A DNA stretch of 64,000 nucleotides from Henckelia pumila (taxonomy: Eukaryota > Streptophyta > Magnoliopsida > Lamiales > Gesneriaceae), in the NCBI RefSeq assembly GCF_033568475.1, contig NC_133122.1, positions 9,972,701 through 10,036,700 on the forward strand, in the 5' to 3' direction. A program made the position numbers and the translations under genes. The notes under the pieces were generated by a model. That model had not been told where the DNA came from. It ran no database searches and saw only the letters and a list, made by a program, of their open reading frames with translations. Shown here in pieces: positions 20,848-63,770 of the stretch (position 1 is the first letter of the stretch; each line of letters begins with the position of its first letter).

Positions 20848-22694
20848 TGAAAGAGTAGGTGCCCGTTGAGCCAACTTGTGGCTAAGGGCTTTGATGACTC
20901 TTTGTATAAACAATCTTTTGTTTAATTTAATTTACACTTTTATTAATGGCAATGACTTTATCTTTCTTCATATTGTTATATTGTGATATACTATTGTTGT
21001 TTTGATAAAGACCTTGAATATACTATAGTGTATGTAAGATGTGGTAGAACATGGAGATGTCTATCATGAAACACATCTTATAGTCACTGTGTATTCTAAA
21101 CTGTTCCTAGTCGATTGAGCCGTCCGATAATAAGGATAAGGATCGCTCGAGTTTGAGACTAGCATTTGCGATGCAGAGTACCACGTTTCATTGGTAAGGA
21201 ACATAGAGATGTTCGAAGCATGCAAATAGATATTCATACGATGAATGATCGAACTACCCTATCCGGACTTTCCAAGTGGTTATCACTTATCGAGTGGATA
21301 AAGTCCGCGGTTTTGGTTGTACACCATTAGTCCTTACTACTTGAAACATCATTGAGACTCTATATGCTAGTACTGTGCTTTGACTCGTTTACCGACTCTA
21401 TTGGGGTCATCAGGTGTCGGGATTGGGTACAGTTACAACACATATAGGAGTCGATGCTTTGTTGTCAAGGGTTCACCACATACTTGTGAGTGTGGATATC
21501 CTATGCGATCTGAGGAGATATTAGTGTGACGAATCTCTGGCCAGAGTACATGATGTGTTTTAAGAAATGGTTTCTTAGTAACACATGCGATGTCACTATT
21601 TGATCTTCAAGATGTATTGCATAGTTATCGAATCTCGAACGACTCTCGATATACCAATGGTTGTTGATTCGATCGGGATATATGGATGAAGGGACCGTAC
21701 TGTACGCTAACCAAAATCTATTGGTTCTTGCAGGCACTATCAGTGATACCTAGGGAATCATGGGGCGATGTTGCTAGGCGCTCTTACCATGATTCGATGG
21801 GTAAGTCGGAAATTGTTGTTCCGAGTCACAAGGAGTTGTGAGCCCACGGCTAGCTGTATCCCTGAACCATTGAGGATCACACAGAGTAATGAATTTTTAA
21901 TCCCCGTTGAGATAGTTAAATTTAAAGAGTTAAATTTAATGAACAAAGAAGTTGGACTTCTTATTTAAGAGTAGAGGAGTAAGATTTCCTAAAATGACAT
22001 AGGGATGGGCATTTTTGGAAACCACTGAATTCGGATTCAGAAAAATTTATCTTGACTTTAAAAGGTGCAGAAATGGTTTCTGTACACATTGGTGAAATCA
22101 GTTTATCAATCGGAGTCATGATGAATTTTATATTAATTTCTGAACATGCGGGCTTTGCTTGTCGGGCTTGAACTTATGACTAATGGGCCCTAAGCTGTTA
22201 GTGGCCTACATTATAAATAAGTTATTGCAGTACAGAAATTGAACAGAACAGGTCACAAATTTTCGAAAACCTAGTTATTTTATCTCAATAGTGGCCGCCC
22301 CCCTCCCTCTCTACTCGGAAAAATCCAGCCTGTGAATTTTGAATTATAGTCTGGTTTAACGGATCAAATTCGTTAATTCTCTTCGTAGAAACTTCTGATA
22401 GATTTTCTAGTGCAATCTATCAGAGGGATTAATTATCCGTTCGTGGACCTGATTGAAGAACAGTTCGTCCATCAGTTCCAGGGATATACAATAAGAGCAG
22501 AGCAATCTGTTGGTGTCCATAATCTCGCTTCGAGATTGGAGGTAAAAATTTATAATTGTTATTTAATTTTTACACACACAATTTAATCGTAAAAGTTTTG
22601 ATACCCATTATGGAATCGTTCCATATAAAAATTTTTAAACTTCCGCTGCACCGGGTATCAATTCTGATTGATCTGATCGCCGCGTTCTCCAACA
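20848..22694 (+). repeat. 5' LTR of Copia copy 1
   Basis: 1847 bp, TG...CA. Short minus-strand frames inside it recur in all four LTRs of the family only because the LTRs are copies. Confidence 0.95.
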
Positions 22695-22695
22695 G

Positions 22696-22708
22696 TGGTA
22701 TAAGAGAC
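22696..22708 (+). promoter_or_regulatory. Mutated primer-binding site of Copia copy 1
   Basis: TGGTATAAGAGAC, one nt after the LTR. Compared with the usual TGGTATCAGAG there is a C-to-A change. Copy 2 has TGGTATCAAAGCC. Confidence 0.8.
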
Positions 22709-22812
22709 ATGTTGCTCAGATCAAGAGATTAAATTAATCGATTGTACAAAAATTTTTAAGCCTCGGTTTTTGAAACAAAATAAATATTTTAAAAATAAAT
22801 TTTTTTTTTTTC

Positions 22813-23004
22813 GGGCATAACCCGGGTAGCGATTGGATCGCTGCCCGGGGGGGGGGGGGGAAGCGATGGTCGCTGCCCAGCGCAGGGCGGCGCACGTCGC
22901 TGCCCATGGGCAGCGACGTGATCGCTGCCCTAGGGGCAGCCGGGCTGCGCGGCCCGAGCCCTTTGGGGCGCGGGCAGCCCGGGAGTGTCCCGGGCGGCCC
23001 GCGG
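22813..23004 (+). repeat. GC-rich hairpin array in the leader of Copia copy 1 (about 7 hairpins)
   Basis: 192 bp of almost pure G and C between AT-rich flanks, 118 nt after the LTR. It is made of successive self-complementary units, e.g. arms AGCGAT/ATCGCT at 22829-22843, a perfect 26-bp palindrome at 22894-22919 centred on CCATGG, and CCCGGGA/TCCCGGG near the end. A run of 14 G is at 22847-22860. The flanks match copy 2, where the array is 458 bp. Confidence 0.95.
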
Positions 23005-23220
23005 AAAAATTAATTTTTTAATTTTAAATTAAATTTTAATATGTTAAAATTCTATTTTTGGTCCGATCGAAAATTGTTTTGATTGGTCCACGAGGCGTCG
23101 GATCGAATTGTTCGAGTCCGAAAATTTTCAAATTGATTTTTGGATAAATTTGAATTTTTGGAAAATTTAAATATTTTATCCGTTAAATTGAATTTTGAAA
23201 TTAATTATTTTTGGTACAAT

Positions 23221-23590
23221 TGATGATAAGATATGATCTTATGGATATATTGAGTAAAATATGATTTTATGTATAAAATTGGATTTTATAGATAAAATAT
23301 GATTTTATTTGATAAAAAGATAAAATATGATTTTGTATGTAAAATAAGATTTTATATATGAAATATGATTTTATCCTTTTAAATTTAAATTGCCATTGCA
23401 TGTTATCCAATAAATTAATTTTGAATTAAATGTTAGTGGATAAGGATGATCTATTGCCATGACCAATTTTGTAGGTGTATGTTAGGAATTTACATTTGTT
23501 TTTATTGTTGTTGGATTTATTAATGGGCCTGGTTTATGGCCCAATATGAATTGTCATATGTAATAAAAGTGGGCTTGGTTTATGGCCCGT
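23221..23590 (+). repeat. AT-rich palindromic repeats and GGGCC hairpins in the Copia leader
   Basis: At 23221-23382 variants of ATAAAATATGATTTTAT, itself nearly palindromic, recur about seven times. At 23525-23541 and 23571-23588 the pair GGGCC/GGCCC (or GGGCT/GGCCC) frames TGGTTTAT in two similar hairpins. Both blocks are present in copy 2 (about 46870-46990 and 46665-46730). Confidence 0.75.
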
Positions 23591-24059
23591 TCCCACCCCT
23601 TAAAAATGTATCCCCTACTTGTCATTGTTATTTATTGTAAATACATTAGATTTAGTGGGAGATGAAGATTTGAAGACGGAGGTGGGCCCAGCAGACAATA
23701 AAGACAGAAGAAATGTAAATTGGAATCTCAATGTAATAGGATTGCATTGCATACTGCATATTACCTAGGATTGGACTAAGAATCGTGATTGGCAACCACG
23801 GGTCGATTAGAAATGGAATCGATCATCCTATATAATATGTGATATTATTTTTGTATGCATGTTTTAGACATAATTGTGTGAATCCGGCAAGCATACAAAA
23901 TTTTAAAAATGATGAGACAAATTTTCAAAATTAAAATCCCTCATTTTAAATATGATTTAAAATTGATATCAAGATAAATAAAGGAAATTTAAATTTGTTT
24001 AAATGTTCCTACCTTCCATCAACGATCAATGTATGAGATGCTATCCGCGGATACGGTCC

Positions 24060-24339
24060 GGCTCATATTATTGGGGGGGCCCGTTCGTCGGAAAGCTGTA
24101 CATTGGATCGACACATGTTGTAAGTTGGGTGGAACTCCGATGGGATTGGCTCATATTATTGGGGGATCCACATGGCGACCGTCCATCACAACTTAATATT
24201 GATGGGTCATCTTGACATGTCACAATAAACGGCGTCATATTATTGGGCCCTTATTGGACATGAGGTAAAAACGTGGAGGTTGCTTTGGAAGCAATTGGGC
24301 TCTACCTTTTGAAAATATGGTTGGCTGATATTATTCGGG
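24060..24339 (+). repeat. Four spaced copies of GGCTCATATTATTGGG in the Copia leader
   Basis: Motif starts are at 24060, 24148, 24231 and 24323, a spacing of 83-92 nt. The last two are variants (GGCGTCATATTATTGGG and GGCTGATATTATTCGGG). Sequence between them is not obviously repeated. All four are kept in copy 2 at about 46176, 46088, 46005 and 45911. Confidence 0.85.
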
Positions 24340-24528
24340 ACCATAGTTTGTCAATTGGAATCCATGTTCTCACTAAGGAAAACAGTTTCCCGTTTTCACT
24401 AGAGGGTAGTGAAATCGTTAAAATAGTGGGAGTGAGATTCATAAAATAAATTTCGCCTATTTTATGTCTTAGTAAATTACTTAAACAATCACTGATATTT
24501 ATTTGTTTCTTTTCAGTATTTCATAAAG

Positions 24529-25308
24529 ATGAATTCGCGTAATCCACTTTTCTCGATCCTCGAACAAAATAAATTGACTGGCGCAAACTATACGGAATGG
24601 TTCCGTAAGTTGAAGATTGTCTTGAGTTCGGAGAAGATGCTCTACGTGTTAGAAAAATCTCCTCCGAAGGAAGCACCAGCTGACATAAGTTCGGAAGAGT
24701 TAGCCAAACTTGATACATGGTGGGACCATGATATCAAGGCCAAATGCTATATGCAAGCCTCGATGTCTGATGAACTCCAGAGGCGATTTGAGGACACCGT
24801 GAATGCTGCTGACATTCACGTACAACTCAAGGAACTTTTTGGGGCTCAATCGAGGGCTGAAAGGTTCGCTACTGTAAAGGAGCTAATGACGTGTCGCATG
24901 CGTGAAGGGACTTCGGTCCGTGATCATGGGGTACGAGTGATTTGGCTCATACAGAAGTTGGTAACCCTTGATTTGGTGTTGGAGCATGAACTCAATGTGG
25001 ACTTACTAATTCTATCTCTTCCTTCTTCGTTTGACGAATTTGTGGTGAATTTCAATATGAACAATATAAAGGCCTCCCTTGAAGAGATGGTCAATATGCT
25101 TGTGACATATGAATCCACATTAAAAAAGGATAAACCGGCTTTCTTGGTGGGCTCCTCTTCTTCTGCTAAGAAGGGGCCAAGTACAAAGGGTAAAAAACGT
25201 TCTACCCCACCCAAGAAAATCGAACCCGAGAAGAAGTACAAGACAAAGGCTTCAAACATGGAAAAATCCAAGGATGTTTGCCATTACTGCAAGAAGCCCG
25301 ATCATTGA
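24529..25308 (+). pseudogene. Copia gag of copy 1, stopped at the zinc knuckle
   Basis: ATG at 24529; 259 codons beginning MNSRNPLFSILEQNKLTGAN. It has a UBN2-type gag core (KCYMQASMSDELQRRFED, GAQSRAERFATVKELMTCRM), a lysine/serine-rich linker, then CHYCKKPDH. The TGA at 25306-25308 replaces the Trp codon that follows the knuckle histidine in copy 2 (CKKPGHWKRNC), so the knuckle is cut. In copy 2 gag and pol are one frame, so this stop also removes pol unless read through. The protein would assemble the particle and bind element RNA. Confidence 0.9.
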
Positions 25309-28300
25309 AAGCGTAACTGCAAGGAATATCTAGAGCAGTTGCGAACTGCGAAGGGTATGTTCTATATTGAAATAAATGTTTCACTTAATACTACTTCTTG
25401 GGTATTGGATACCGGATGTGGATCTCACATTTGCAATGATTTGCAGGTGATGACAAGAAGTCGTAGGCTTAGAATGGGTGAGACCAGCTGAGGCTGGGAA
25501 ATGGTTCCAGAGTTGAAGCTAAAGCTGTGGGAGATATTTATTTAATTTTGCAGAACGATTTTAAGTTACTTTTGAGAGATGTTTTATTTGTTCCGGATTT
25601 GATTAAAAACATTATTTCTGTTTCTATGCTTGATAGAGATGGTTATTCTTGCAATTTTGTGAATGAGATTTGCAATATTTACAAGAATGAATGTTTGATT
25701 GGAAATGGACAACTTGAAAATGATCTATATAACTTAAAACTAAAAGACGTTCCAATAAATTATGTTGATAAACCGGCAACAACAAACAAAAGGAAAATCG
25801 ATAGCCAAAACCCGGCAGACCTTTGGCACGCTAGGCTAGGTCATATTTCCTCAAGGAGGATGAACAAGCTAGTGGGAGAGGGCATGTTTGATATGTCTGA
25901 TATTAACTCTCTACCTACTTGTGAATCCTGCCTGAAAGGAAAAATGACTAAATCTCCTTTTAAGGGGAAACCTGAGCGTAGTCAAAATCTGTTGGATTTG
26001 ATCCATACAGATGTTTGTGGTCCATTTAGAGTTGGTACTCAATATGGCCACACCTACTTCATTAACTTTACTGATGATTATTCTAGGTATGGGTATTTAT
26101 ATTTAATGAAATATAAGTCTGAAGCATTTGAAAAGTTCAAAGAATTCAAGGCTGAAGTAGAAAACAAGCTAGGTAAAAGTATTAAAGCACTTCGATCGGA
26201 TCGAGGTGGAGAATACTTAAGTACCGAGTTTTTGGACTATCTGAAAGAGAATGGGATTCTCTCTCAGTGGACTCCTCCTATGACACCACAGCTGAATGGT
26301 GTATCGGAGCGTCGTAATCGAACTTTGTTGGACATGGTTCGATCCATGATGAGCTTCACTGAGCTTCCACCTTCGTTTTGGGGCTATGCGCTTGAAACGA
26401 CGGTATTGTTGTTGAACAACGTCCACACGAAAGCAGTGGACAAAACACCATACGAGTTATGGAATGGCAAAGCTCCTAAGTATTCGTACTTGAGGATTTG
26501 GGGATGTCCTGCTTACGTGAAGCAGACAGTGGGAGATAAGTTGGATAGTCGATCCACCTTATGTTATTTTGTAGGGTATCCGAAGAATTCAATCGGATAT
26601 TATTTCTATTATCCTGCTGAAACAAAAGTGTTTGTTTCAAGGAATGCCACCTTCTTGGAGAAGGAGTTCTTATTGGATAAGAAAGGCGAGATGATGGAAC
26701 TCGAAGAAATTCGAGAAGAACCCGAAATACAAAATAACGATCCTACACCTCAGGAACCATTGATAGACACGCCTGTACCTAGAAGATTCGAGAGGACTTC
26801 TAGACCTCCTATTCGATATGGCCTTCTTCTTGAAGGGGATCAAGATGAACCCGATGTTGGATGTGATCCAAGAAACTTCAAGGAAGCAATTTCTGATGCG
26901 GATTCAAATTTATGGCTTGAAGCTATGCAGTCGGAAATAGATTCGATGCATACAAACCAAGTTTGGTCTTTAGTAGATCCTCCCGATGGAATTGTTCCAA
27001 TAGGGTGTAAATGGATCTACAAGAGAAAGCTTGGGCCTGATGGTAAGGTATTGACCTACAAGGCGCGATTGGTGGCGAAAGGTTATACTCAAAGACAAGG
27101 AGTTGACTATGATGAAACCTTTTCACCAGTTGCAATGTTCAAGTCCATAAGAATCCTTATTGCCATAGCTGCTTGGTATGACTATGAGATATGAAAAATG
27201 GATGTGAAAACTGCTTTTCTTAATGGAGACATTAAGGAAGAAATCTATATGAAGCAGCCTGAGGGGTACACATCCATGGGAAGCGAGCATAAGGTATGCA
27301 AGCTTCAGAGATCAATTTATGGTCTAAAACAAGCATCAAGAAGTTGGAACCAGAAATTTGATGAAACAATAAAGGATTTTGGTTTCATCAAGAACCCGGA
27401 GGAACCATGCGTGTACAAGAAAGTAGTTAAGGATGCTGTGACATTCTTAGTACTTTATGTTGATGACATCCTACTCATTGGGAATGATGTAGGGATGTTG
27501 CAGTCAACAAAGATATGGTTATCAGGTAGATTCTCGATGAAGGATTTGGGTGAGGCATCCTATATTCTTGGGATACAGATCTATAGAGATAGATCTAAGA
27601 GAATGATAGGACTCACTCAATCAACCTACATCGACACCATATTGAAACGGTTTTCAATGGATGGGTCCAAGAGAGGACATCTACCCATGTGTCATGGAGT
27701 TTCTCTATCCAAGTCTATGTGTCCCAAGACGGATGAAGAGATAGAGAAAATGACACATGTACCATATGCGTCAGCCATAGGTAGTATCATGTATGGGATG
27801 ATATCTACCAGACCGGATGTAGCATTTGCTCTGAGTGTCACGGGCAGATATCAAGCTAATCCCGGTCAAATGCATTGGAAAGCCGTGAAGGACATTCTTA
27901 AGTACTTACGAAGGACTAAGAATATGTTCATGGTATATGGAGGAAGAGAACTAAAATTGGAAGGCTATACCGACTCTAGCTTCCAAAGTGACGTGGATGA
28001 CTCGAAGTAAACCTCTGGATTTGTGTTCATGCTCAATGGCGGTGCTGTCTCTTGGAAGAGTTCCAAGCAGGACACCACAGCGGATTCCACAACTGAGGCA
28101 GAATACATTGCAGCATCAGCTGCTACTAAAGAGGCCGTTTGGATGAGGAATTTCGTCCAAGAGTTGGGCGTCATTCCTGAAGTTGTTGGTCCAGTCCCGG
28201 TGTACTGTGACAACACGGGTGCCGTTGCTCAGGCAAAGGAACCAAGGTCTCATCAAAGATCCAAACACGTACTGAGGAAATACCACATCATCCGGGAGAT

Positions 28301-28442
28301 TGTGGAAAGAGGAGACATCACTATCGAAAGAGTGGCCTCTACAGACAATATCGCTGATCCACTTACTAAGCCCTTGTCAGGATCATTATTTGACAAACAT
28401 CGCGAAGCAATGGGTCTACGTAGTATGACTAGTTGGCTTTAG
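25309..28442 (+). pseudogene. Copia pol of copy 1: protease, integrase, RT, RNase H, disabled
   Basis: Continues the gag frame. Protease motif WVLDTGCGSH is at about 25399-25430. A net 1-bp deletion at about 25480-25504 (copy 2 has one more C in GACCC and differs at GGCTCGGG) shifts the frame. Then follow the GAG-pre-integrase domain (LWHARLGHISSRRMNKL), an integrase core with HTDVCGP and SDRGGEY, RT with MDVKTAFLNG and catalytic YVDDILL, and RNase H with TEAEYIAAS. Further stops are TGA at 27192-27194 (TGG in copy 2) and TAA at 28008-28010 (TCA in copy 2). The natural end is TAG at 28440-28442, just before the PPT GGGCAAGTGGGAGAT. It would need proteins from another copy to move. Confidence 0.9.
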
Positions 28443-28456
28443 GGCAAGTGGGAGAT

Positions 28457-30303
28457 TGAAAGAGTAGGTGCCCGGTGAGCCAACTTGTGGCTAAGGGCTT
28501 TGATGACTCTTTGTATAAACAATCTTTTGTTTAATATAATTTACACTTTTATTAATGGCAATGACTTTATCTTTCTTCATATTGTTATATTGTGATATAC
28601 TATTGTTGTTTTGATAAAGACCTTGAATATACTATAGTGTATGTAAGATGTGGTAGAACATGGAGATGTCTATCATGAAACACATCTTATAGTCACTGTG
28701 TATTCTAAACTGTTCCTAGTCGATTGAGCCGTCCGATAATAAGGATAAGGATCGCTCGAGTTTGAGACTAGCATTTGCGATGCAGAGTACCACGTTTCAT
28801 TGGTAAGGAACATAGAGATGTTCGAAGCATGCAAATGGATATTCATACGATGAATGATCGAACTACCCTATCCGGACTTTCCAAGTGGTTATCACTTATT
28901 GAGTGGATAAAGTCCGCAGTTTTTGTTGTACACCATTAGTCCTTACTACTTGAAACATCATTGAGACTCTATATGCTAGTACTGTGCTTTGACTCGTTTA
29001 CCGACTCTATTGGGGTCATCAGGTGTCGGGATTGGGTACAGTTACAACACATATAGGAGTCGATGTATTGTTGTCAAGGATTCACCACATACTTGCGAGT
29101 GTGGATATCTTATGCGATCTGAGGAGATATTAGTGTGACGAATCTCTGGCCAGAGTACATGATGTGTTTTAAGAAATGGTTTCTTAATAACACATGCGAT
29201 GTCACTATTTGATCTTCAAGATGTATTGCATAGTTATCGAATCTCGAACGACTCTCGATATACCAATGGTTGTTGATTCGATCGGGATATATGGATGAAG
29301 GGACCGTACTGTACGCTAACCAAAATCTATTGGTTCTTGCAGGCACTATCAGTGATACCTAGGGAATCATGGGGCGATGTTGCTAGGCGCTCTTACCATG
29401 ATTCGATGGGCAAGTCGAAAATTGTTGTTCCGAGTCACAAGGAGTTGTGAGCCCACGGCTAGCTGTATCCCTGAACCATTGAGGGTCACACAGAGTAATG
29501 GATTTTTAATCCCCGTTGAGATAGTTAAATTTAAAGAGTTAAATTTAATGAACAAAGAAGTTGGACTTCTTATTTAAGAGTAGAGGAGTAAGATTTCCTA
29601 AAATGACATAGGGATGGGAATTTTTGGAAACCACTGAATTCGGATTCAGAAAAATTTATCTTGACTTTAAAAGGTGCAGAAATGGTTTCTGTACACATTG
29701 GTGAAATCAGTTTATCAATCGGAGTCATGATGAATTTTATATTAATTTCTGAACATGCGGGCTTTGCTTGTCGGGCTTGAACTTATGACTAATGGGCCCT
29801 AAGCTGTTAGTGGCCTACATTATAAATAAGTTATTGCAGTACAGAAATTGAACACAACAGGTCACAAATTTTCGAAAACCTAGTTATTTTCTCTCAATAG
29901 TGGCCGCCCCCCTCCCTCTCTACTCGGGAAAATCCAGCCTGTGAATTTTGAATTACAGTCTGGTTTAACGGATCAAATTCGTTAATTCTCTTCGTAGAAA
30001 CTTCTGATAGATTTTCTAGTGCAATCTATCAGAGGGATTAATTATCCGTTCGTGGACCTGATTGAAGAACAGTTCGTCCATCAGTTCCAGGGATATACAA
30101 CAAGAGCAGAGCAATCTGTTGGTGTCCATAATCTCGCTTCGAGATTGGAGGTAAAAATTTATAATTGTTAATTAATTTTTACACACACAATTTAATCGTA
30201 AAAGTTTTGATACCCATTATGGAATCGTTCCATATAAAAATTTTTAAACTTCCGCTGCACCGGGTATCAATTCTGATTGATCTGATCGCCGCGTTCTCCA
30301 ACA
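28457..30303 (+). repeat. 3' LTR of Copia copy 1
   Basis: 1847 bp, same length as the 5' LTR. The purine tract at 28442-28456 immediately precedes it. Confidence 0.95.
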
Positions 30304-33191: not shown

Positions 33192-35444
33192 ATGGAAAGC
33201 TTTGAAAATGAGAGTGGACAGGAGGATGTTGATGATTATTCTCCTTTGTGGAGATTTGTAACCAAGGTGGAAAAGGAAACTGGAGGTGGAAATGTCACTT
33301 GGTCATGCAACATATGTACTAAATTGTGCAAAGGATCATATACAAGGGTGAAAGCACACCTTTTAAAACAAAAAGGCGTTGGAATTGCTGGTTGTACGGC
33401 TGTTACAATGGACCAAATGAAGCGTATGCAACAGCTTGTGGATGATGCAGAATTGAGAAAGAAGAATTCTAAACCGAAAGAAGTTCCATTGCCTTCATCG
33501 TCTGTATCATCAAACATGGCTTCAAAATCTTCATTCAGTGGTCCTTTGCAAAGCGATGATCCAACAAAGAAGAGGAAACTACCAATTGGCCCTCTTGAAA
33601 AAGCTTTTAACTTGAATGCTAGAGATGAGCTTCACTCTGAAATTGCTAGGTTGTTTTACACCGGGGGATTATCTTTCAACATTGCTAGAAATCCTCATTA
33701 CGTTCGTGCATTCAGTTTGGCTACTCAACGAACGATTCCAGGTTATCTTCCACCTGGATACAATTTATTGAGAACTTCACTTCTTCAAAAAGAAAAAGCT
33801 CATATTGAAAAATTGTTGGAGCCAACAAAAGCTGCTTGGAAACAAAAAGGAGTTAGTATATGTAGTGATGGGTGGTCGGATGTGCAAAGAAGACCGCTAA
33901 TTAATATCATGGCAGTGTGTGAGAGTGGTCCTATGTTTTTGAAGGCGGTTAACTGTGAAGGTGAGTACAAGGATAAACTTTTCATCTCTAAGTTACTCAT
34001 TAATGCCATAAATGAAGTGGGACATCAGAATGTTGTACAAGTTGTCATTGATAATGCTTCTGTTTGCAAAGCTGCTGGGTTACTCGTTGAGGCAAAGTAC
34101 CCACACATATTTTGGACTCCTTGTGTTGTACACACATTGAATCTTGCTTTGAAAAATATTTGTGCACCGACTGACTCTCTACAAAACAGAGAAGCCTTTG
34201 ATGAGTGCAAGTGGATAGCTGAAGTAGCAAATGATGATTCAATGATCAAGAATTTTATCATGAATCACAATATGAGATTATCGATGTTCAACGATAGCTC
34301 AAACTTGAAGATGCTATCACTTGTGGATACTCGATTTGCTTCCACGATCATTATGCTTAAGAGGTTCAGACAAATCAAAAGATGTCTTGAAAACATGGTG
34401 ATTAGTGAAAGATGGGATCTCTACAAGGAGGATGACGTAGTGAAGGCTAGAGCAGTGAAGTACAAGATATTGGATGATCAATTTTGGGAAAATATTGATT
34501 ATATACTTGCTTTCACAAGTCCGATTTATGAGATGCTAAGGAAAGCAGACACTGATCAACCTTGTCTTCATTTAGTCTATGAGTGGTGGGATGAAATGAT
34601 ATAGAAAATGAGAGTTGCTATCTCAAAGGGGCCTCATAGTGGAGATTCAAAATTTTATGATGTTGTTCATAATATTCTGGTGGAGCGATGGAATAAAAGC
34701 AACACGCCTCTACATTGTTTGGCGCATTCTTTGAATCCAAGGAAAAATTCTAAAAAATTTCAACTATCTAAGTTTTATGCAAATTTGAAATATTAGTTCA
34801 TGAATGATGTTAAACTATAAATCTTTTTGTATAGGTATTATAGCCATGAGTGGCTTCAAGAATCTACCAATCGTCTTCCTCCTCATAGGGACATCAAAGT
34901 TTCAAGGGAAAGAAAAAAGTGCATTGAAAGATATTACTCCAATTCATCCGAACGAAGAAGTGTCAATGAGGAGTTTGCTTCTTTTTCAGCTGCCATTGAT
35001 GATTTTGTTGATAATGATGCAATGCGTGATCGAGGTTTGATGTCTCCAACTAAGTGGTGGGTTGTCCATGGTGCTTCTGCACCAACTCTTCAAAGTTTAG
35101 CTTTGAAGCTACTTGGACAACCATCTTCTTCCTCTTGTTGTGAGAGAAATTGGAACACCTACAGTTTTATACACTCACTAAAGAGGAACAAGATAACACC
35201 ACAAAGAGCGGAAGATTTGGTGTATGTTCACTATAATCTTCGTCTTTTATCTAGGAGAAGTCCACATTATAGTGAAGGAGAGAGTAAGATGTGGGATGTT
35301 GGAGCAGATGGATTTGATTCGATGGACATGGAGGGTGCTGCTATCCTTGAAATTGCCAATTTGTCTCTTGATGAACCTGAATTGGAGTCGGTCTTATTTA
35401 CTGACGAAGGCGGTGTTGGTGATGAGACCGATATGGATGTTTGA
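33192..35444 (+). pseudogene. hAT transposase with BED zinc finger, one stop and a damaged intron donor
   Basis: Exon 1 runs from the ATG at 33192: BED-type zinc finger (WSCNICTKLCKGSYTRVKAHL), DUF659-like region (KQKGVSICSDGWSDVQRRPL, VVQVVIDNAS), then the RNase H-like core. TAG at 34602-34604 interrupts WWDEMI...KMRVAI and is probably a changed Glu codon. The frame then continues to HSLNPR. An intron of 93 nt at 34742-34834 is inferred from the protein pattern: its acceptor TTGTATAG is normal but the donor reads GA instead of GT. Exon 2 (34835-35444) gives YYSHEWL and the hAT C-terminal dimerisation domain (LALKLLGQPSSSSCCERNW, NKITPQRAEDLVYVHYNLR). A full-length hAT transposase cuts and joins DNA at the terminal repeats. 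This copy is only lightly damaged. Confidence 0.85.
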
Positions 35445-39923: not shown

Positions 39924-41791
39924 TGTTGGAAAACGCGGCTCTCAGATCAATCACGATTAATACCCGGTGCAGCGGAAGTTTAAAATTTTTATTATGGAAC
40001 AATTCCATAGTGTGGGTATCAACCGTTTAACGATTAAATTATAAGTGTGTGTAAAATTAAATAACAATTATTAAATTTTACCTTCAATCTCGAAGCGAGA
40101 TTATTGGACACCACACAGATTTTTCTGCGCTTCTTGTATCTCCCTGGAACTGATGAATATTCTGTCCTTCAATCAGGTCCACGAATGGAGGTTTAATCCC
40201 TCTGATAGATTGCACTAGAAAATCTATCAGAAGTTTTCTACGAAGAGAATAAACGAATTTGATTCGCTATTCCAGACTGCAATTCAAAATCACAGACCGG
40301 AATTTCTCACGCAGAGAAGGGAGGGGGGCGGCCGAAATATTTTAGAGAGAGCTAGGGTTTTCGAAAAACTGTCTCTTAAATTATGACCTGTTGTGTGTAA
40401 TTTCTGTACTGCAATAACTTATTTATAATGTAGGCCACTAACACCTTAGGGCCCATTAGTCATAAGTTGAGGCCCGACAAGCAAAGCCCGCATGTTCAGA
40501 AATTAATATAAAATTCATCGTGACTCCGATTGATGAACCGATTTCACCAATGTGCACAGAAACCATTTCTGCACATTTTAAAGTCAAGATAAATTTTCCT
40601 GAATCCGAATTCAGTGATTTCCAAAAATGTCCATCCATATGTCATTTTAGGAAATCCTACTCCCTTACTCTTATTTAAGAAGTCCAACTTCTTTATTCAT
40701 TAAATTTAACTCTTTAAATTTAACTATCTCAACGGGGATTAAAACTCCATTACACTGTGTGACCCTCAATGGTTCAGGGATACAGCTAGCCGTGGGCTCA
40801 CAACTCCTTGTGACTCGGAACAACGATTTCCGACTTGCCCAACGAATCATGGTAAAGCGCCTAGCAACATCGCCCCATGATTCCCTAGGTATCACTGATA
40901 GTGCCTACAAGAACCAGTAGATTTTGGTTAGCGTACAGTACGGTCCCTTCATCCATATATCCCGATCGAATCAACAACCATTGGTATATCGAGAGTCGCT
41001 CAAGATTCGATAACTATGCAATACATCTTGAAGATCAAATTAGTGACATCGCATGTGCTACTAAGAAACCATTTCTTAAATCACATCAAGTACTCTGGCC
41101 AGAGATTCGTCACACTAATATCTCCTCAGATCGCATAGGATATCCACACTCGCAAGTATGTGGTGAATCCTTGACAACAATGGATCGACTCCTATATGTG
41201 TTGTAACTGTACCCAATCCCGACACCTGATGACCCCCATAGAGTCGGTAAACGAGTCAAAGCACAGTACTAGCATATAGAGTCTCCATGATGTTTCAAGT
41301 AGTAAGGACTAATGGTGTACAACCAAAACCGCGGACTTTATCCACTCGATAAGTGATAACCACTTGGAAAGTCCGGATAGGGTAGTTCGATTATTCATCC
41401 TATGAATATCCATTTGCATGCTTCGAACATCTCCATGTTCCCTACCAATGAAACGTGGTACTCCGCATCGCAAATGCTAGTCTCAAACTCGAGCGATCCT
41501 TATCCTTATTATCGGACGGCTCAATCGACTAGGAACAGTTTAGAATATACAGTGACTATAAGATGTATTTCATGATAGACATCCCCATGTTCTACCACAT
41601 CTTACATACACTATAGTATATTCAAGGTCTTTATCAAAACAACAATAGTATATCACAATATAACAATATGAAGAAAGATAAAGTCATTGCCATTAATAAA
41701 AGTGTAAATTATATTAAACAAAAGATCGTTTGTACAAAGAGTCATCAAAGCCCATAGCCACAAGTTGGCTCACTGGGCACCCACTCTTTCA
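39924..41791 (-). repeat. 3' LTR of Copia copy 2
   Basis: About 1868 bp, preceded on the minus strand by the purine tract GGGCAAGTGGGAGAT at 41792-41806. Confidence 0.95.
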
Positions 41792-43626: not shown

Positions 43627-45720
43627 TTAAGCAGGATAATAGAAATAATATCCGATTGAATTCTTTGGATACCCTACAAAATAACATAAGCTGGATCGAC
43701 TATCCAACTTATCTCTCACTGTCTGCTTCACGTAAGCAGGACATCCCCAAATCCTTAAGTACGAATACTTAGGAGCTTTGCCATTCCATAACTCGTATGG
43801 TGTTTTGTCCACTGCTTTAGTGTGGACGTTGTTCAACAACAATACCGCCGTTTCAAGCGCATAGCCCCAAAACGAAGGTGGAAGCTCAGTGAAGCTCATC
43901 ATGGATCGAACCATGTCCAACAAAGTTCGATTACGACGCTCCGATACACCATTCAGCTGTGGTGTCATAGGAGGAGTCCACTGAGAGAGAATCCCATTCT
44001 CTTTTAGATAGTCCAAAAACTCGGTACTTAAGTATTCTCCACCTCGATCCGATCGAAGTGCTTTAATACTTTTACCTAGCTTATTTTCTACTTCAGCCTT
44101 GAATTCTTTGAACTTTTCAAATGCTTCAGACTTATATTTCATTAAATATAAATACCCATACCTTGAATAATCGTCAGTAAAGGTAATGAAGTAGGTGTGG
44201 CCATATTGAGTCCCAACTCTAAATGGTCCACAAACATCTGTATGGATCAAATCCAACAGATTTTGACTACGCTCAGGCTTCCCCTTAAAAGGAGATTTAG
44301 TCATTTTCCCTTTTAGACAGGATTCACAAGTAGGTAGAGAGTTAATATCAGACATATCAAACATGCCCTCTCCCACTAGCTTGTTCATCCTCCTTGAGGA
44401 AATATGACCTAGCCTAGCATGCCAAAGGTTCGCCGGGTTTTGACTATCGATTTTCCTTTTGTTTGTTGTTGCCGGTTTATCAATATAATTTATTGGAACG
44501 TCTTTCAGTTTTAAGTTGTATAGATCGTTTTCAAGTTGTCCATTTCCAATCAAACATTCATTCTTGTAAATATTGCAAATCACATTCACAAAATTGCAAG
44601 AATAACCATCTCTATCTAGCATAGAAACAGAAATAATGTTTTTAATTAAATCCGGAACAAATAAAACATCTCTTAAAAATAACTTAAAACCGTTCTGCAA
44701 AATTAAACAAACATCTCCAATGGCTGTAGCTTCAACTCTGGAACCATTCCCGAGCCTCAGCTGGGTCTCACCCATTCTAAGCCTGCGACTTCTTGTCATC
44801 ACCTGCAAATCATTGCAAATGTGAGATCCACATCCGGTATCCAATACCCAAGAAGTAGTATTAAGTGAAATGTTTATTTCAATATAGAACATACCCTTTG
44901 CAGTTCCCAACTGCTCTAGATATTCCTTGCAGTTGCGCTTCCAATGACCGGGCTTCTTGCAGTAATGGCAAACATCCTTGGATTTTCCATTGTTTGAAGC
45001 CTTTGTCTTGTGCTTCTTCTCGGGCTCGACTTTCTTGGGTGGGGCAGAACGTTTCTTGCCTTTCATACTTGGCCCCTTCTTAGCAGAAGATGAGGAGCCC
45101 ACCAAGAAAGCTGGCTTATCCTTCTTAAGTGTGGATTCATATGTCACAAGCATATTGACCATCTCTTCAAGGGTGGCCTCTATCTTGTTCATATTAAAAT
45201 TTACCACAAATCCGTCAAACGAAGAAGGAAGAGACAGAAGCAGTAAATCCACGTTGAGTTCATGCTCCAACACCAAATCAAGGGTCGCTAACTTTTGTAT
45301 GAGCCAAATCACTCGTACCCCATGATCACGGACCGAAGTCCCTTCACGCATGCGACACGTCATCAGCTCCTTAACAGTAGCGAACCTTTCAGCCCTCGAT
45401 TGAGCCCCAAAAAGTTCCTTGAGTTGAGCGTGAATGTCAGCAGCATTCACGGTGTCCTCAAATCGCCTCTGGAGTTCATCAGACATCGAGGCTTGCATAT
45501 AGCATTTGGTCTTGATGTCATGGTCCCACCATGCATCAAGTTTGGCCAATTCCTCCGGACTTACGTCAGCTGGTGCTTCCTTCGAAGGTGATTTCTCTAA
45601 CACGTAGAGCATCTTCTCCGAAGTCAAGACAATCTTCAACTTCCGGAACCATTCCGTATAGTTTGCGCCAGTTAACTTGTTTTGTTCGAGGATCGAGAAT
45701 AAAGGATTACGCGAATTCAT
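43627..45720 (-). pseudogene. Copia gag-protease-integrase of copy 2, 697 codons to a premature stop
   Basis: Starts MNSRNPLFSILEQNKLTGAN at 45720. Gag core, Lys-rich linker and intact zinc knuckle CHYCKKPGHWKRNC (about residues 247-260), then the protease motif WVLDTGCGSH (about 293), GAG-pre-integrase LWHARLGHISSRRMNKL, integrase zinc-binding CESCLKGK, and core D,D,E residues in HTDVCGP, SDRGGEY and LNGVSERRNR. The frame ends at TAA 43627-43629, just after YFYYPA, where copy 1 continues ETKVFVSR. Gag and pol are one frame in this family. Fragments may still make Gag, protease and integrase. Confidence 0.9.
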
Positions 45721-45910
45721 CGTATGAAATACTGAAAAGAAAAACAGACATATATCAATGATTGTTTAAGCAATTTACTAAGACATAAAATAGGCGAAAT
45801 TTAATTTTATGAATCTCACTCCCACTATTTTAACGATTTCACTACCCTCTAGTGAAAACGGGAAACTTTTTCCTTAGTGAGAACATGGAGTCCAATTGAC
45901 AAACTTATGG

Positions 45911-46193
45911 TCCCGAATAATATCAGCCAACCATAATTCTCAAAAGGTAGAGCCCAATTGCTTCCAAAGCAACCCCCATGTTTTTTACCTCAAGTCCAAT
46001 AAGGGCCCAATAATATGACGCCGTTTAAAGTGACATGTCAAGATGACCCATCAATATTAAGTTGTGATGGACGGTCGCCATGTGGATCCCCCAATAATAT
46101 GAGCCGATCCCATGGGAGTTCCACCCAACTTACAACATGTGTCGATCCAATGTACAGCTTTCCGACGGACGGGCCCCCCCAATAATATGAGCC
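45911..46193 (-). repeat. Four spaced GGCTCATATTATTGGG motifs in the leader of copy 2
   Basis: Minus-strand motifs at about 46176, 46088, 46005 and 45911, with the same order and variants as in copy 1. Confidence 0.85.
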
Positions 46194-47247
46194 GGACCGT
46201 ATCCGCGGGTAGCATCACATACATTGACCGTTGATGGAAGGTAGGAACATTTAAACAAATTTAAATTTCCTTTATTTATCTTGATATCAATTTTAAATCA
46301 TATTTAAAATGAGGGATTTTTTTTTTAATTATAAAAATTTGTCTCATCAATTTCAAATTATTGCATGCTTGCCGGATTCACGCAATTATGTCTAAAACAT
46401 GCATACAATCATAATATCATATATTATATAGGATGATCGATTCCATTTCTAATTGACCCGTGATTGCCAATCACGAGTCTTAGTCCAATCCTAGGTAATA
46501 TGCAGTATGCAATGCAATCCTATTACATGTGCTTCCAATTTACATTTCTTCTGTCTTTATTGTCTGCTGAGCCCACCATCTTCAAATCTTGATCTCCCAC
46601 TAAATCTAATGTATTTACAATAAATAACAATGACAAGTAGGGGATACATTTTTAGGGGTGGGAACGGGCCATAAACCAAGCCCACTTTTATTACATATGA
46701 CATTCATACTGGGCCATAAACCAGGCCCATTAATAAAACCAACAACAATAAAAACAAATGTAAATTCCTAACATACACCTACAAAATTGGTCATGGCAAT
46801 CGATCATCCTTATCCAATAACATTTAATTCAAAATTAATTTATTGGATAACATGCAGTGGCAATTCAAATTTAAACAGGATAAAATCATATTTTATATAT
46901 AAAATCTCATTTTACATATAAAATCATATTTTATCTCTTTATCAAATAAAATCATATTTTATCTACAAAATCCAATTTTATGGATAAAATCATATTTTAC
47001 TCAATATATTCATAAGATCAAATCTTATCATCAATTATACCAAAAATAATTGATTTCAAAATTCAATTTAAGGATAAAATATTAAAATTTTCCAAAAATT
47101 CAAATTTATCCAAAAATCAATTTTAAAGTTTACGGACTCGAACAATTCTATCCGAAATCTCGTGAACCAATCAAAAACAATTTTTGACCGGACCAAAAAT
47201 AAAATTTTAACACATTAAAATTAATTTTAAATAAAAATTTAATTTTT

Positions 47248-47705
47248 CCCGCGGGCCGCCCGGGACACTCCCGGGCCGGCCCGCACCCGTGGGCGCGGGC
47301 CGGGGCAGCCCGGCTGCCCCTTTAGGGCAGCAATAGTTGCTGCCCTGGCGGCGCCGTGCGCCGCCCTGGGCGGTGCCGAGCGTCGCCCATGGGCGGCGCC
47401 GTGCGCCCCCTTTGGGCGGCGCTGTGCGCCGCCCGGGGCAGCAACAATTGCTGCCCCACCGGGCAGCGATCTAATCGAGCGTCGCCCCTGGGCGGCGCCG
47501 TGCGCCGCCCTGGGCAGCGCCGAGCGCTGCCTTGCGCAGCGCCGAGCACTGCCCTGGCGGCGCTGAGCGCCGCCCCTGGGCGGCGACGTGCGCCGCCGTG
47601 GGCGGCGCTGTGCGCCCACTTTGGGCGGCGCCGTGCGCCGCCCGGGGCAGCGACCGTCGCTGCCCCATCGGGCAGCGATCCAATCGCTGCCCGGGTTTTG
47701 CCCGG
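47248..47705 (-). repeat. GC-rich hairpin array in the leader of Copia copy 2 (about 19 hairpins)
   Basis: 458 bp of back-to-back self-complementary units of 19-23 bp, separated by 0-5 nt. Minus-strand arms include GGGCAGCGAT/ATCGCTGCCC, GGGGCAGCGAC/GTCGCTGCCCC, GGGCGGCGC/GCGCCGCCC (several times), GGGGCAGCAA/TTGCTGCCCC, GGGGCAGCC/GGCTGCCCC, GGCCCGC/GCGGGCC and CCCGGGA/TCCCGGG. Most loops are 1-3 nt. Flanks match copy 1, whose array is 192 bp. Open frames reported across it on both strands are by-products of GC composition. Confidence 0.95.
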
Positions 47706-47807
47706 AAAAATAAAATTTTTATTTAAAATATTTATTTTGTTTTAAAAAACCAAGACTCAAAAATTTTTGTACAATCGATTAATTTAATCGTTTGATCTGA
47801 GCAACCT

Positions 47808-47820
47808 GGCTTTGATACCA
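47808..47820 (-). promoter_or_regulatory. Primer-binding site of Copia copy 2
   Basis: Minus strand TGGTATCAAAGCC, one mismatch to the initiator-Met PBS, one nt from the 5' LTR. Confidence 0.85.
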
Positions 47821-47821
47821 C

Positions 47822-49688
47822 TGTTGGAAAACGCGGCTCTCAGATCAATCACGATTAATACCGGTGCAGCGGAAGTTTAAAATTTTTATTATGGAACAAT
47901 TCCATAGTGTGGGTATCAACCGTTTAACGATTAAATTATAAGTGTGTGTAAAATTAAATAACAATTATTAAATTTTACCTTCAATCTCGAAGCGAGATTA
48001 TTGGACACCACACAGATTTCTCTGCGCTTCTTGTATCTCCCTGGAACTGATGAATATTCTGTCCTTCAATCAAGTCCACGAATGGAGGTTTAATCCCTCT
48101 GATAGATTGCACTAGAAAATCTATCAGAAGTTTTCTACGAAGAGAATAAACGAATTTGATTCGCTATTCCAGACTGCAAATCAAAATCACAGACCGGAAT
48201 TTCTCACGCAGAGAAGGGAGGGGGGCGGCCGAAATATTTTAGAGAGAGCTAGGGTTTTCGAAAAACTGTCTCTTAAATTATGACCTGTTGTGTGTAATTT
48301 CTGTACTGCAATAACTTATTTATAATGCAGGCCACTAACACCTTAGGGCCCATTAGTCATAAGTTGAGGCCCGACAAGCAAAGCCCGCATGTTCAGAAAT
48401 TAATATAAAATTCATCGTGACTCCGATTGATGAACCGATTTCACCAATGTGCACAGAAACCATTTCTGCACATTTTAAAGTCAAGATAAATTTTCCTGAA
48501 TCCGAATTCAGTGATTTCCAAAAATGTCCATCCATATGTCATTTTAGGAAATCCTACTCCCTTACTCTTATTTAAGAAGTCCAACTTCTTTATTCATTAA
48601 ATTTAACTCTTTAAATTTAACTATCTCAACGGGGATTAAAACTCCATTACACTGTGTGACCCTCAATGGTTCAGGGATACAGCTAGCCGTGGGCTCACAA
48701 CTCCTTGTGACTCGGAACAACGATTTCCGACTTGCCCAACGAATCATGGTAAAGCGCCTAGCAGCATCGCCCCATGATTCCCTAGGTATCACTGATAGTG
48801 CCTACAAGAACCAGTAGATTTTGGTTAGCGTACAGTACGGTCCCTTCATCCATATATCCCGATCGAATCAACAACCATTGGTATATCGAGAGTCGCTCAA
48901 GATTCGATAACTATGCAATACATCTTGAAGATCAAATTAGTGACATCGCATGTGCTACTAAGAAACCATTTCTTAAATCACATCAAGTACTCTGGCCAGA
49001 GATTCGTCACACTAATATCTCCTCAGATCGCATAGGATATCCACACTCGCAAGTATGTGGTGAATCCTTGACAACAATGCATCGACTCCTATATGTGTTG
49101 TAACTGTACCCAATCCCGACACCTGATGACCCCCATAGAGTCGGTAAACGAGTCAAAGCACAGTACTAGCATATAGAGTCTCCATGATGTTTCAAGTAGT
49201 AAGGACTAATGGTGTACAACCAAAACCGCGGACTTTATCCACTCGATAAGTGATAACCACTTGGAAAGTCCGGATAGGGTAGTTCGATTATTCATCCTAT
49301 GAATATCCATTTGCATGCTTCGAACATCTCCATGTTCCCTACCAATGAAACGTGGTACTCCGCATCGCAAATGCTAGTCTCAAACTCGAGCGATCCTTAT
49401 CCTTATTATCGGACGGCTCAATCGACTAGGAACAGTTTAGAATATACAGTGACTATAAGATGTATTTCATGATAGACATCCCCATGTTCTACCACATCTT
49501 ACATACACTATAGTATATTCAAGGTCTTTATCAAAACAACAATAGTATATCACAATATAACAATATGAAGAAAGATAAAGTCATTGCCATTAATAAAAGT
49601 GTAAATTATATTAAACAAAAGATCGTTTGTACAAAGAGTCATCAAAGCCCATAGCCACAAGTTGGCTCACTGGGCACCCACTCTTTCA
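47822..49688 (-). repeat. 5' LTR of Copia copy 2
   Basis: 1867 bp, nearly identical to 39924-41791. Confidence 0.95.
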
Positions 49689-60461: not shown

Positions 60462-63400
60462 TCAAATCAAGTAACAAGTATCTCCCAAGGCTCGGTGAAT
60501 ATGGATAACAATCTTCCTGAAGATAGCGTCAACTTGGGGCCGCTCCGCATCAAAGATCATTCGATTACGAGCACCCCATATATGGTAGAACACTGCAGCA
60601 ACTCCAGTCTGGCACCTCCGCTTCTGAAAAGTAGTGCCCCTGTAGGACCTGCGCATAAATCTTAACAAACCCATTAAAGAACAAACATGATATTGAATAC
60701 CCAACCAATCCCAGAGACGAGCCCAAAGCTGCCGAGAGACAGTGCACTCGAAGAAAACATGTTGGGCATTTTCGTTCACGACCCCACAAAACCCACAAGA
60801 TTGGTCCTGGATGTATGGTTGACGGTCCTTAGTAAGGCATTTTCCATGGGCAACAAGCCAGAAAATAATTCTATGCTTAGGAAGGATGTATGGTTTCCAA
60901 ACAATTGGCTTCCAAGGCCATCTCCCCGCCCCATCAAAGAAGCTCTTATAGAGAAGTGTGAGTCCATCCCTCTTTTGAAACCAAGTATCCAATTGCAAAG
61001 CTGCATTAGCCCAACCGTTGAATCTAACGGCAAGTTCATCCCTAAGCTCGACCAATTTCTTGATGAGGATATTGTCATCTTTCCGAGCTCTCCAGTCCTC
61101 TAAGTTATCCCAGTAGTTGTGGTTGATCCATTTCACCCATAGTGTGTCCTTCTTTTTGTGAATGTCCCAGAGTGTTTTAGCTAATAGGGTCTTATTCCAA
61201 ATTCTCAAGTCATGAAGACCCAAACCCCCATCCTCCACAGGAGAGCAAACTTTCCTCCAAGCGATCGGAGGATGTTTTCTAGTCCACATAAAGTTCCTGC
61301 ATATCTTGTCAATTTTGTCAATGACCCCACAAGAGATAGGGAGAACAGAGAGCCAATAACACTCAACCCCTTGAACCATAGATCGAAGTAACTCAAGTTT
61401 TCCTGCATAGGATAGAGTATGTCTGGGCCAAGAGGCTATTTTCTTTGCAATCCCATCAACCAGGCCACTATAATCTCCTTCCCTGAGTCTTCCAGCGGCA
61501 AGTGGAATACCAAGGTACCTAAAAGGAAACGATCCAATCTGGTACCCACTTAACCGAATGATTTCACTGCGATCTGGTTCTTTGACAGCTGCCATGAATA
61601 GATTAGATTTCATCGCATTAGCACGGAGGCCAGCAATCTTCCCAAACTTACTAACACAATCCAGTATGATTTTTACACTTGGGACATCACCCTTTGACAA
61701 AATCAGCAAATCATCAGCATACACCAAGTGGGTAATGTTAAAGTGATCACACCTAGGGTGAAACTAGAAATCTGCCAGCGTAGAGGCATGGAGAAGGGAT
61801 CTAGAGAGCATTTCCATGCACAACACAAAGAGGAATGGAGACAAAGGATCCCCTTGGCGAAGACCTCTGGCCCCTTTGAAGAATCCAAACAATTGTCTAC
61901 CTAATGAAATGGAGTAGGAGGTAGAGCTCACACACTCCATGATCCAATCAATAAACCGAGGGGGAAAATTGAGGAAACGCAGAGTATCCTGTAGAAATTC
62001 CCAGTGAACCGTATCATAGGCTTTCTGGAGATCTATCTTTAAGATGCAACGGGGAGAGCCTCTCTTTCTCGCATAATGCTTCAACATTTCCTGGGCCATG
62101 TGAATGTTTTCCACAATAGACCTACCTGGAACAAATGCTGCTTGGTCTTGACTAATCAAAGGCTCAATCACATCCACTAATCTATTAGTCAGGATCTTGG
62201 CAATGATTTTATAGAACACTGTACAGCACAATATTGGCCTCACATCATTGACTGTAGTGGCATGGTCTGACTTTGGCACCAATGCTATGGAAGCGTGGTT
62301 CCACTGTTTGAGTAACTTACCACTTCTAAAGAATTCCAAGACAGCCGCAATAACATCACCGTCAACAGTGGCCCAAGCCTTCTTAAAGAAGGCAACCCCG
62401 AAACCATCTGGGCCAGGAGCTTTGTCATCCTCAATGTTGAACAGAGCACTCTTGACTTCCTCCACATTCACATCTCTAATTAATCCCTCCCAACTGGCCT
62501 CCTCCACCTTCGGACCAGGCGCAACAAGGGAGGTATCCAAGGTATCTCTCTCCAAACTCGAGCCCAACAAAGCCCGATAGAAATTCACAAATTCATCCGC
62601 TATTTCATTTTGATCTATGGATGTGGAACCATCTCTGAGAGTGAAGGCCACAATCTTATTTCTCTTGATGTTCCTTTTAATCATGCCATGGAAGAATTTG
62701 GAGCATCTGTCACTATGTTTGAGATACTCACATTTGGCCTTTTGGGAAAGAAACAAGCGCTCCACTTCAAGAAGGAATTCTACTTTTCTCCTAAGAGCCA
62801 CAATTGAGTTGTCTATAACTCCAGAGTTAAGGGCATTAGATTGGGCCTCTGCAAGCTCCTCACTCGCATGCTTTGCTCGACTAGAGATATGACTGAAATG
62901 ACGCTCATTAAGCTGTTTCAGCACTCTTTTCATCCCATGTAGCTTTTTCTTGAGGAGGAATTGTGCTGTGCCACCCCCACTGAACCACCAGTTGCTCCTG
63001 ACTAACTGTAGAAAGTCCGGGTGGGTAGCCCACATATTGAAGAATTTAAAAGGTGTGGCCCGACGGGAGCTATCCCTGAAGATGGAAACCACACAACAAG
63101 TATGGTCAGAAAAACAACCCGGTGTCACAAAGTCAGCAAATACATCCAAATTCGATTCACTCCAATGATGATTGACCATAACTCGATCAAGCTTAGAAGA
63201 AACAGCCAGGCTAAACCAAGTGTAGTAGCAACCTACATGATTCACGTCTGAAAGCTCCAACCGATTGATACAATTTCTCAGATCTGCCATATCTCTTGGG
63301 ACAATAGGAATGCCACCCATCTTCTCATGAGGGTATCTAACACAATTAAAGTTCCCTAACAGGATCCAGGGGAGGGAAATATTCTCCCCATGGTTGATCA

Positions 63401-63770
63401 GGAAATCCCAAAGAGGCCTCCTAGCCACCACCGAATTCTTGCCATAGATGAAAGAAGCTAAAAAGACTCTTTGAGAATGAAGGCACACGACTGAGACATG
63501 AATAACTTGGTCAGACATACCAAGAACATCTAGCCTCACATCCTTACTATCCCACATGACAAGGATACGACTGTTCGTGCACATATGAAAGTTGTGCATG
63601 AAAGACATACCAGAGAATTTAGTATCCATCATTCTATCCACAAGATTAACATTAACCTTTACTTCAAGTAACCCAAGGACGCTCAAGTTGTATTTTTTCA
63701 ACACTCCTTGAATGTGCCTTTGTTTGAGGGGCTTATTGAAACCCCTCATGTTCCAACTTGCAATCTTCAT
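60462..63770 (-). pseudogene. LINE ORF2: endonuclease, reverse transcriptase, zf-RVT, one internal stop
   Basis: Starts MKIASWNMRGFN at 63770. APE-type endonuclease (about residues 1-225) with LLEVKV, LLGNFNC (most relatives have GDFN; here the Asp is Asn) and SDHTCC. Reverse transcriptase (about 450-720) has LVPKSDHATTVNDVRPI, KIDLQKAYDTVHWEFL, GLRQGDPLSPFLFVL and catalytic YADDLL. TAG at 61764-61766 lies 13 codons before YADD; the frame continues unchanged to 60462. The C-terminus has a zf-RVT domain (HRIIFWLVAHGKCLT, CGFCGVVNENAQHVFFEC). Total about 1100 codons, near normal for plant L1 ORF2; no RNase H. Its ATG overlaps the ORF1 stop as ATGA, so coupled translation is likely in intact relatives. 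Damage is one stop and the D-to-N change. Confidence 0.9.

Follow-up and report, generated by a model that had tools for sequence, protein, structure and literature searches.

Why does a plant Copia retrotransposon carry a dense run of GC-rich hairpins in the leader between its primer-binding site (PBS) and gag, and how do the two arms of each hairpin stay complementary? LTR retrotransposons fill plant genomes, and the way in which one RNA acts as both messenger and genome has been worked out for few of them. To our knowledge, few packaging signals have been described for plant Copia elements. We analyzed a 64,000-nt stretch of Henckelia pumila DNA (the window), for which an original prediction made from the sequence alone had described such an array, had noticed paired changes in its stems, and had considered roles in RNA dimerization, packaging, or translation.

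The array belongs to copy A, which shares the window with a second member of the same family, copy B (Table 1). The sense strand of copy A is the minus strand. Its gag and reverse transcriptase pieces gave PF14223 and PF07727 matches well above the cutoff in a profile search. A Copia-type gag, an RVT_2 reverse transcriptase, two LTRs, and a PBS identify copy A as a Copia (Ty1) element, and we take the PBS (TGGTATCA...) to be of the initiator-Met type. The reading frame is broken near 43620, and the ORF list contains no env-sized ORF upstream of the 3' LTR. Searches for relatives of the gag piece gave no pattern match in viral contigs and 10 in bacterial and archaeal genome contigs, none of which was confirmed. 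Families with a related gag occur in Primulina, Dorcoceras, and Zingiber. As predicted, the array lies between the PBS and gag, about 130 nt past the former and about 290 nt downstream of a predicted splice donor.

Table 1. Positions of the element features within the window, with predicted features marked as such
Feature	Coordinates	Strand	Remarks
Copy A 5' LTR	47822..49688	-	LTR comparison
Copy A 3' LTR	39924..41791	-	99.6% identity with 5' LTR
Copy A predicted exon 1 (5' UTR), 312 nt, zero ATG	47979..48290	-	start assumed ~30 nt behind TATA box
Copy A predicted intron, 2247 nt, GTAAAATTTA...TTCTTTTCAG	45732..47978	-	spans the end of the LTR, the PBS, the array, and the AT-rich leader
Copy A PBS	~47805..47820	-	TGGTATCA..., adjoins LTR end, read directly
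Copy A GC-rich hairpin array, 19 hand-delimited units of 18-28 nt	47258..47692	-	sequence read directly
Unit 10, chimera of two units with broken stem	47461..47488	-	hand delimitation
Unit 17 (GGGGCAGC.CGG.GCTGCCCC)	47302..47320	-	by eye, closest to hairpin retained in related family
Copy A first gag-pol ORF (gag, PF14223)	43627..45720	-	gag ORF begins 45720, 11 nt past predicted acceptor
Copy B, second family member	20848..30303	+	LTRs 20848-22694 and 28457-30303, 98.8% identical
Copy B short array, about 6-7 units	22812..23005	+	hairpin calling and folding

The array itself was as predicted, coordinates included. In addition to the 19 units delimited by hand, its tiled hairpin score was 83, compared with a maximum of 33 among 300 dinucleotide shuffles, and its sense RNA folded with a z of -17.9, a value equaled by 0/100 shuffles. 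Automatic callers with differing rules recognized 14, 16, and 17 nonoverlapping hairpins in the same block. In sense order, which runs from unit 1 (47670-47692) to the final unit (47258-47276), most of the stems pair perfectly or almost perfectly; one arm is shortened by a small deletion in units 4 and 13, and units 5, 7, and 14 have mismatched stems. In the register that we used, the loops comprise 3 nt. The array is 79% GC, with AT-rich surroundings. The shorter array of copy B folded with a z of -6.8. Within the window, no Rfam family was found at the gathering threshold. Both strands of the array are crossed by ORFs (126 and 129 aa); we rejected a coding role by the argument that GC-rich stretches are often open and that gain or loss of units shifts the frame. 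About 250 nt deeper in the leader, we observed a second array on the minus strand (46880-47007) that consists of short AT-rich hairpins of the TAAAAT.ATG.ATTTTA type with 3-nt loops; the region around it (46850-47247) reached a z of 5.7 against shuffles, compared with 3.1 and 3.7 for two AT-rich control windows.

To place the array within its family, we searched the genome with the copy A array, the copy B array, and the array-free PBS flank as queries and scored the best 40 of 3259, 3250, and 1792 candidates, respectively, so that the sample is dominated by copies close to the query. These searches supplied 110 loci, of which 107 had a recognized PBS; removal of three duplicates left 104 distinct arrays, all from one genome. 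The arrays were 155 to 520 bp long and contained 4 to 22 units (median, 9). An array was present in 30/30 copies examined from the best 40 of the PBS-flank search, where it started 125 to 151 nt past the PBS motif, spanned 156 to 448 bp, and contained 4 to 17 called units; three of these 30 copies, copy A among them, were also found with the array query.

Array length is hypervariable even among copies with nearly identical flanks. In the 25 closest-flank pairs of the 351 formed by 27 PBS-flank copies, flanks were 0.2 to 0.9% diverged over about 960 nt and arrays were 2 to 203 bp apart, with assembly errors in GC hairpin arrays as a possible source of some length differences. In contrast to array lengths, flank anchors shifted by a few nucleotides in most copies. 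The arrays differ by gain or loss of blocks of units with homologous junctions. Block deletions leave hairpins intact, with internal blocks lost and the first and last units usually kept, and units fused by deletions that join homologous points are again hairpins (L073, L091, and L100). We also found duplicated unit blocks in L006, L015, and L024. Terminal hairpins were not clearly more conserved than flanks, and the conservation comparison did not support the idea that hairpins are more conserved than their flanks. Short arrays of the copy B type (155 to 198 bp) were numerous among the best 40 of 3250 copy B matches (L101 left out); many of those in L041 to L070 have a run of up to about 14 G residues between the first two hairpins. 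Since copies with short arrays have spread well, a long array is not needed, and the expansion to 19 units seems to reflect the instability of palindromic repeats during copying, not a requirement for them.

Such instability is also what would be expected of a nonfunctional palindromic minisatellite that arises as a by-product of slippage or template switching on GC-rich inverted repeats, with gains balancing losses. The hypervariable length, the duplicated blocks, and the presence of a further, AT-rich array in this leader agree with this explanation, as do the strand-symmetric mismatches and loop inversions described below. We nevertheless consider it somewhat unlikely, as at least four called units occurred in 30/30 PBS-flank copies despite fast block loss and GC hairpins are retained at the same place in related groups (see below). 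Rapid loss of units together with the presence of an array in every examined copy suggests constraint, as far as a sample of close relatives can indicate.

The original prediction also held that a change in one arm is matched by a complementary change in the other, and this pattern extends across the family. In our pairing test, we used distinct units, excluded end units, and left the tested pair out when calling a unit. Among the 104 arrays, Watson-Crick pairing ranged from 74 to 87% at each of eight stem positions, with shuffle means of about 40 to 65%. The leave-one-pair-out z values were 5.2 to 13.8, and all eight pairs were above the best of 2000 shuffles. These arm shuffles ignore relatedness, and a change inherited by many units counts repeatedly, an effect that was reduced by using distinct units. 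Right arms paired with their own left arms at 94.3% of positions and with those of the next and previous units at 63.5% and 63.7%; the own-arm figure is biased upward because units were called by pairing, and the leave-one-pair-out figures are much less biased. Two to four Watson-Crick types occurred at the stem positions, some from units of other stem lengths in another register. Examples of double changes include GCGA/TCGC versus GCAA/TTGC in the second unit and GCCC/GGGC versus ACCC/GGGT in the last unit. Thus, paired changes exceed those of shuffled arms, as expected of a covarying helix (with relatedness ignored by the shuffles), and the arms did not vary independently across the family, an outcome on which the original prediction of maintained stems depended.

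Covariation of this strength could reflect selection on the hairpins in RNA for dimerization or packaging, with paired changes arising by ordinary compensatory mutation, as proposed in the original prediction. The very stable fold and the location of the array behind a predicted splice donor are consistent with this possibility. Selection on the sense RNA, however, would be expected to tolerate G-U over A-C mismatches, and we found no such tolerance in distinct units (63 G-U versus 72 A-C). The ratio was 45:54 in single-copy units and 8:13 in units common to two or more copies; the comparison is weak for old changes, as single-copy changes are probably mostly postinsertion. Because G-U mismatches were no commoner than A-C mismatches, the arrays lack strand asymmetry. 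With 3-nt, variable loops as a further point against it, RNA-level selection appears quite unlikely to explain the paired arms.

The loops gave further information on how the arms are kept. In the first unit of L023, the stem is unchanged but the loop is CCA, which exactly reverse complements the TGG that 86 copies have on this stem. Of the 35 loop pairs without a shared base at any of the three sites, 5 were reverse complements, a modest excess (nominal P of 0.009 versus an expectation of 1 in 27, uniform loops assumed). The equal frequency of G-U and A-C mismatches and the exact inversion of some loops favor upkeep of the arms at the DNA level, and palindrome duplication with hairpin-templated DNA correction is a better fit than selection for pairing in RNA. 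The original prediction had left a choice between a maintained structure and the spread of whole palindromes; the gain and loss of blocks with homologous junctions speak for spread, and the G-U:A-C ratio speaks against maintenance by selection on RNA pairs. Template switching is described as creating and repairing hairpins, with loop inversion as an expected trace (PMC8794818, in the part available), and patterns of both arm repair and loop inversion were seen in the array. That description concerns rRNA genes, where inversions are rare, in contrast to an array in a retroelement. The array supplies many natural replicates for measuring the creation, correction, and loss of hairpins during copying.

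A possible use for the array emerged from a point that the original prediction apparently did not foresee, as the leader of about 2.25 kb looks like an intron. We judged splice sites by the general consensus and by conservation. Counted from the presumed start of transcription, the unspliced leader of copy A contains 49 ATGs. The 312 nt before AAG/GTAAAA (the slash marks the predicted exon-intron boundary) contain none, compared with a shuffle mean of 4.7, and only 1/1000 shuffles was ATG free. In copy B, the 320 nt upstream of the donor are ATG free as well. Of the 69 copies for which sufficient sequence was available, 61 had no ATG within 300 nt upstream of the donor, 5 had one, and 3 had two, whereas all 100-nt (or 80-nt) bins further upstream contained ATGs in 69/69 copies. 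A low ATG content is not unique to the predicted exon, because the bin 80 to 180 nt past the donor is ATG poor as well (59/69 without), and in L117, from a related family, two ATGs fall within 320 nt upstream of its donor. A TATA box 280 to 450 nt before the donor was recognized in 64/69 copies, and the eight commonest TATA-donor distances (329 to 349 nt) cover 43 of these 64.

The donor string AG/GTAAA was found in 108/109 loci, including L117; the exception was L116, which has other sequence there. In copy A, this donor scores 7 of 9 against the general consensus, tied with two other GT sites of 117. The best pyrimidine tract among the 38 YAG sites of the copy A leader belongs to the site 11 nt upstream of gag, and a T-rich tract with CAG occurs 10 to 15 nt before gag in 9/9 gag starts (copies A and B and L111 to L117, some of which are from one family). 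A donor, an acceptor, and an AUG-poor first exon, as expected for a leader intron, were therefore all recognizable in sequence, with the two ATGs of the L117 first exon as a qualification. By eye, we also observed a motif, CATATTATTGGG (variant GATATTATTCGG), four times in the gag-side leader of copy A (about 45910-46200) and of L115, L116, and L117; its conservation stands out in noncoding DNA.

The predicted intron would place the array downstream of the splice donor and would confine it to unspliced genomic RNA. In retroviruses, packaging signals lie downstream of the splice donor and are thus in unspliced RNA. The array shares the 5' leader position of retroviral packaging and dimerization signals and of the Ty1 dimerization hairpins (PMC5454406) and, if the predicted intron is real, would likewise lie between the major splice donor and gag. 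The intron would also remove the need for reinitiation or shunting past the long leader, which the original prediction had considered.

On balance, we see roughly even chances that the leader is an intron in which the PBS and a hairpin cluster grown by slippage serve the unspliced genomic RNA. In this model, the donor would lie in the LTR upstream of the PBS and the acceptor directly before gag. Spliced RNA, with a short 5' UTR that is AUG free in copies A and B, would be translated into gag-pol, and unspliced RNA alone would retain the PBS and the GC-rich hairpins beyond it. The cluster would most likely mark or serve the unspliced genomic RNA through packaging, dimerization, or keeping part of the RNA unspliced. 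A genomic-RNA role is the likeliest use of the array, with packaging, dimerization, and splicing control inseparable on these data. One or two hairpins would be enough in related groups. We infer that slippage of palindromic direct repeats during copying by reverse transcriptase has expanded the cluster to between 4 and 22 units, with whole units and blocks gained and lost, and that the arms are kept complementary mainly at the DNA or cDNA level by palindrome duplication and hairpin-templated correction. More tentatively, and with slightly less than even confidence, we propose a retrovirus-like split in a plant Copia lineage: a leader intron would hold the PBS and a self-repairing hairpin cluster, the spliced RNA would be translated, and the unspliced RNA alone would carry the genomic-RNA signals, with a cluster that expands and shrinks yet is kept in every examined PBS-bearing copy. 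Division of the messenger and genome roles by splicing would be simple and testable.

Related groups showed how few hairpins may suffice. Gag identity to copy A was about 62 to 64% for L111 and L112, 60% for L114, and 52% for L113. L117 is the leader of a copy with a 70% gag match to P0017; because the gag of L114 matches P0017 at 71%, we take L114 as a sister of the L117 copy. The L116 leader belongs to a copy with a 73% gag match to P0028. We found two perfect GC hairpins in L117, 134 and 169 nt past the PBS, and two overlapping GC hairpins in L116 that start 123 and 136 nt past the PBS; in each case the hairpin count was reached by 0/500 shuffles of the first 300 nt. Seven further stretches of the L117 family included six with the PBS region (two recognized by eye only) and L120, which has other sequence. 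Each of the six had one or more GC hairpins with at least 7 perfect pairs. Loss of or damage to the first of the two hairpins was seen in L118, L121, and L122, both look fused into one in L119, and just an alternative 7-bp pairing is left in L123. In the L116 group, short clusters occur in L125 and L126, and L127 has other sequence. GC hairpins past the PBS were thus found in 10/10 PBS-bearing stretches from two related groups, one of which has a gag about 60% identical to that of copy A (sister L114). Neither a recognizable PBS nor a GC-rich window was present in 3 kb of L115, which is of the P0028 gag family. In L116, the donor-bearing part of the LTR (before about position 1300) is replaced by other sequence, perhaps through nested insertion or truncation.

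These small clusters also bear on the possibility that the array is a splicing brake, a structured GC block in an AT-rich intron that lowers splicing to leave a pool of unspliced genomic RNA. Its strong structure inside the predicted intron would suit this function, but related groups have enough with one or two hairpins, and we regard a brake as an unlikely explanation.

The statement in the original prediction that no plant Copia feature of this kind was described proved too strong, as Sireviruses have clusters of GC-rich palindromes in LTRs and before env (PMC2829016). These repeated motifs (RMs) are short palindromes, most of them GC rich, that have a short central segment, number 8 to 32 units per element, and often form CpG islands; the consensus arms in a sorghum Sirevirus element are GGGCGGCA and TGCCGCCC (PMC2829016). 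In form, RMs are nearest to the array. RMs, however, lie in the upper LTR half and upstream of env, and the available part of that paper reports them absent from classic (non-Sirevirus) Copia elements (PMC2829016), whereas the copy A array lies behind the PBS in the leader, between the PBS and gag, in an element with no env-sized ORF listed. The number of at least 8 palindromic units expected of RMs is reached by copy A (19) but not by every copy.

The likeness to RMs raises the alternative of a DNA-level regulatory cluster, in which CpG-rich palindromes act as an intronic enhancer or a CpG-island-like element. The CpG observed/expected ratio of the copy A array is 1.01 (73 CpG), 15 GCCGCC/GGCGGC sites are present, and Sirevirus palindromes form CpG islands (PMC2829016). 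In contrast, the copy B array has only 2 such sites, the hairpins of related groups have none by eye, and the array is located behind the promoter, downstream of the predicted donor and outside U3, which together make this alternative distinctly improbable. Maize Sirevirus palindromes attract small RNAs (PMC10760457, in part), and by analogy a silencing cost of the array is possible.

The array and the predicted intron can also be compared with features of other elements. Ty1 dimerizes by kissing loops with 7-nt complementary motifs (PMC5454406, in part); the loops of the array are 3 nt and variable, which argues against dimerization of the Ty1 kind, and its stems are many and variable in number. 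According to the available part of PMC12786077, plant LTR elements are generally without introns, with Ogre and EVADE as exceptions, and BARE1 splices 104 nt out of its coding region (PMC3735527, in part). If the predicted leader intron is real, copy A resembles BARE1 and EVADE in that splicing gives a separate RNA for translation. The introns of BARE1 and EVADE are in the gag-pol region (104 nt; protease domain), whereas the predicted intron in copy A is the leader upstream of gag and holds the PBS (PMC3735527, PMC12786077). Diaspora, a soybean Ty3-gypsy element, resembles copy A in its long leader, predicted donors in the LTR, and predicted acceptors around the gag start; the available part of the 2005 paper left the relevance of these sites open and knew of no intron upstream of gag (PMC1142308). 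In plant LTR elements, hypervariable tandem repeats have been described in 3' UTRs (via the reference list of PMC6317226). Our literature search, mostly without subscription journals and thus weak evidence of absence, detected no leader hairpin array by title or abstract and no demonstrated leader intron in a plant element by title.

Other likely mobile elements lie near the two copies in the window. ORFs at 33192-35444 resemble a hAT-type transposase split into two pieces, and an ORF at 60462-63770 resembles a LINE reverse transcriptase, both by eye. A Gypsy-like element (7940-13126; class judged by eye) has a 1462-aa ORF and is probably very recent, because its two 469-bp repeats are 100% identical.
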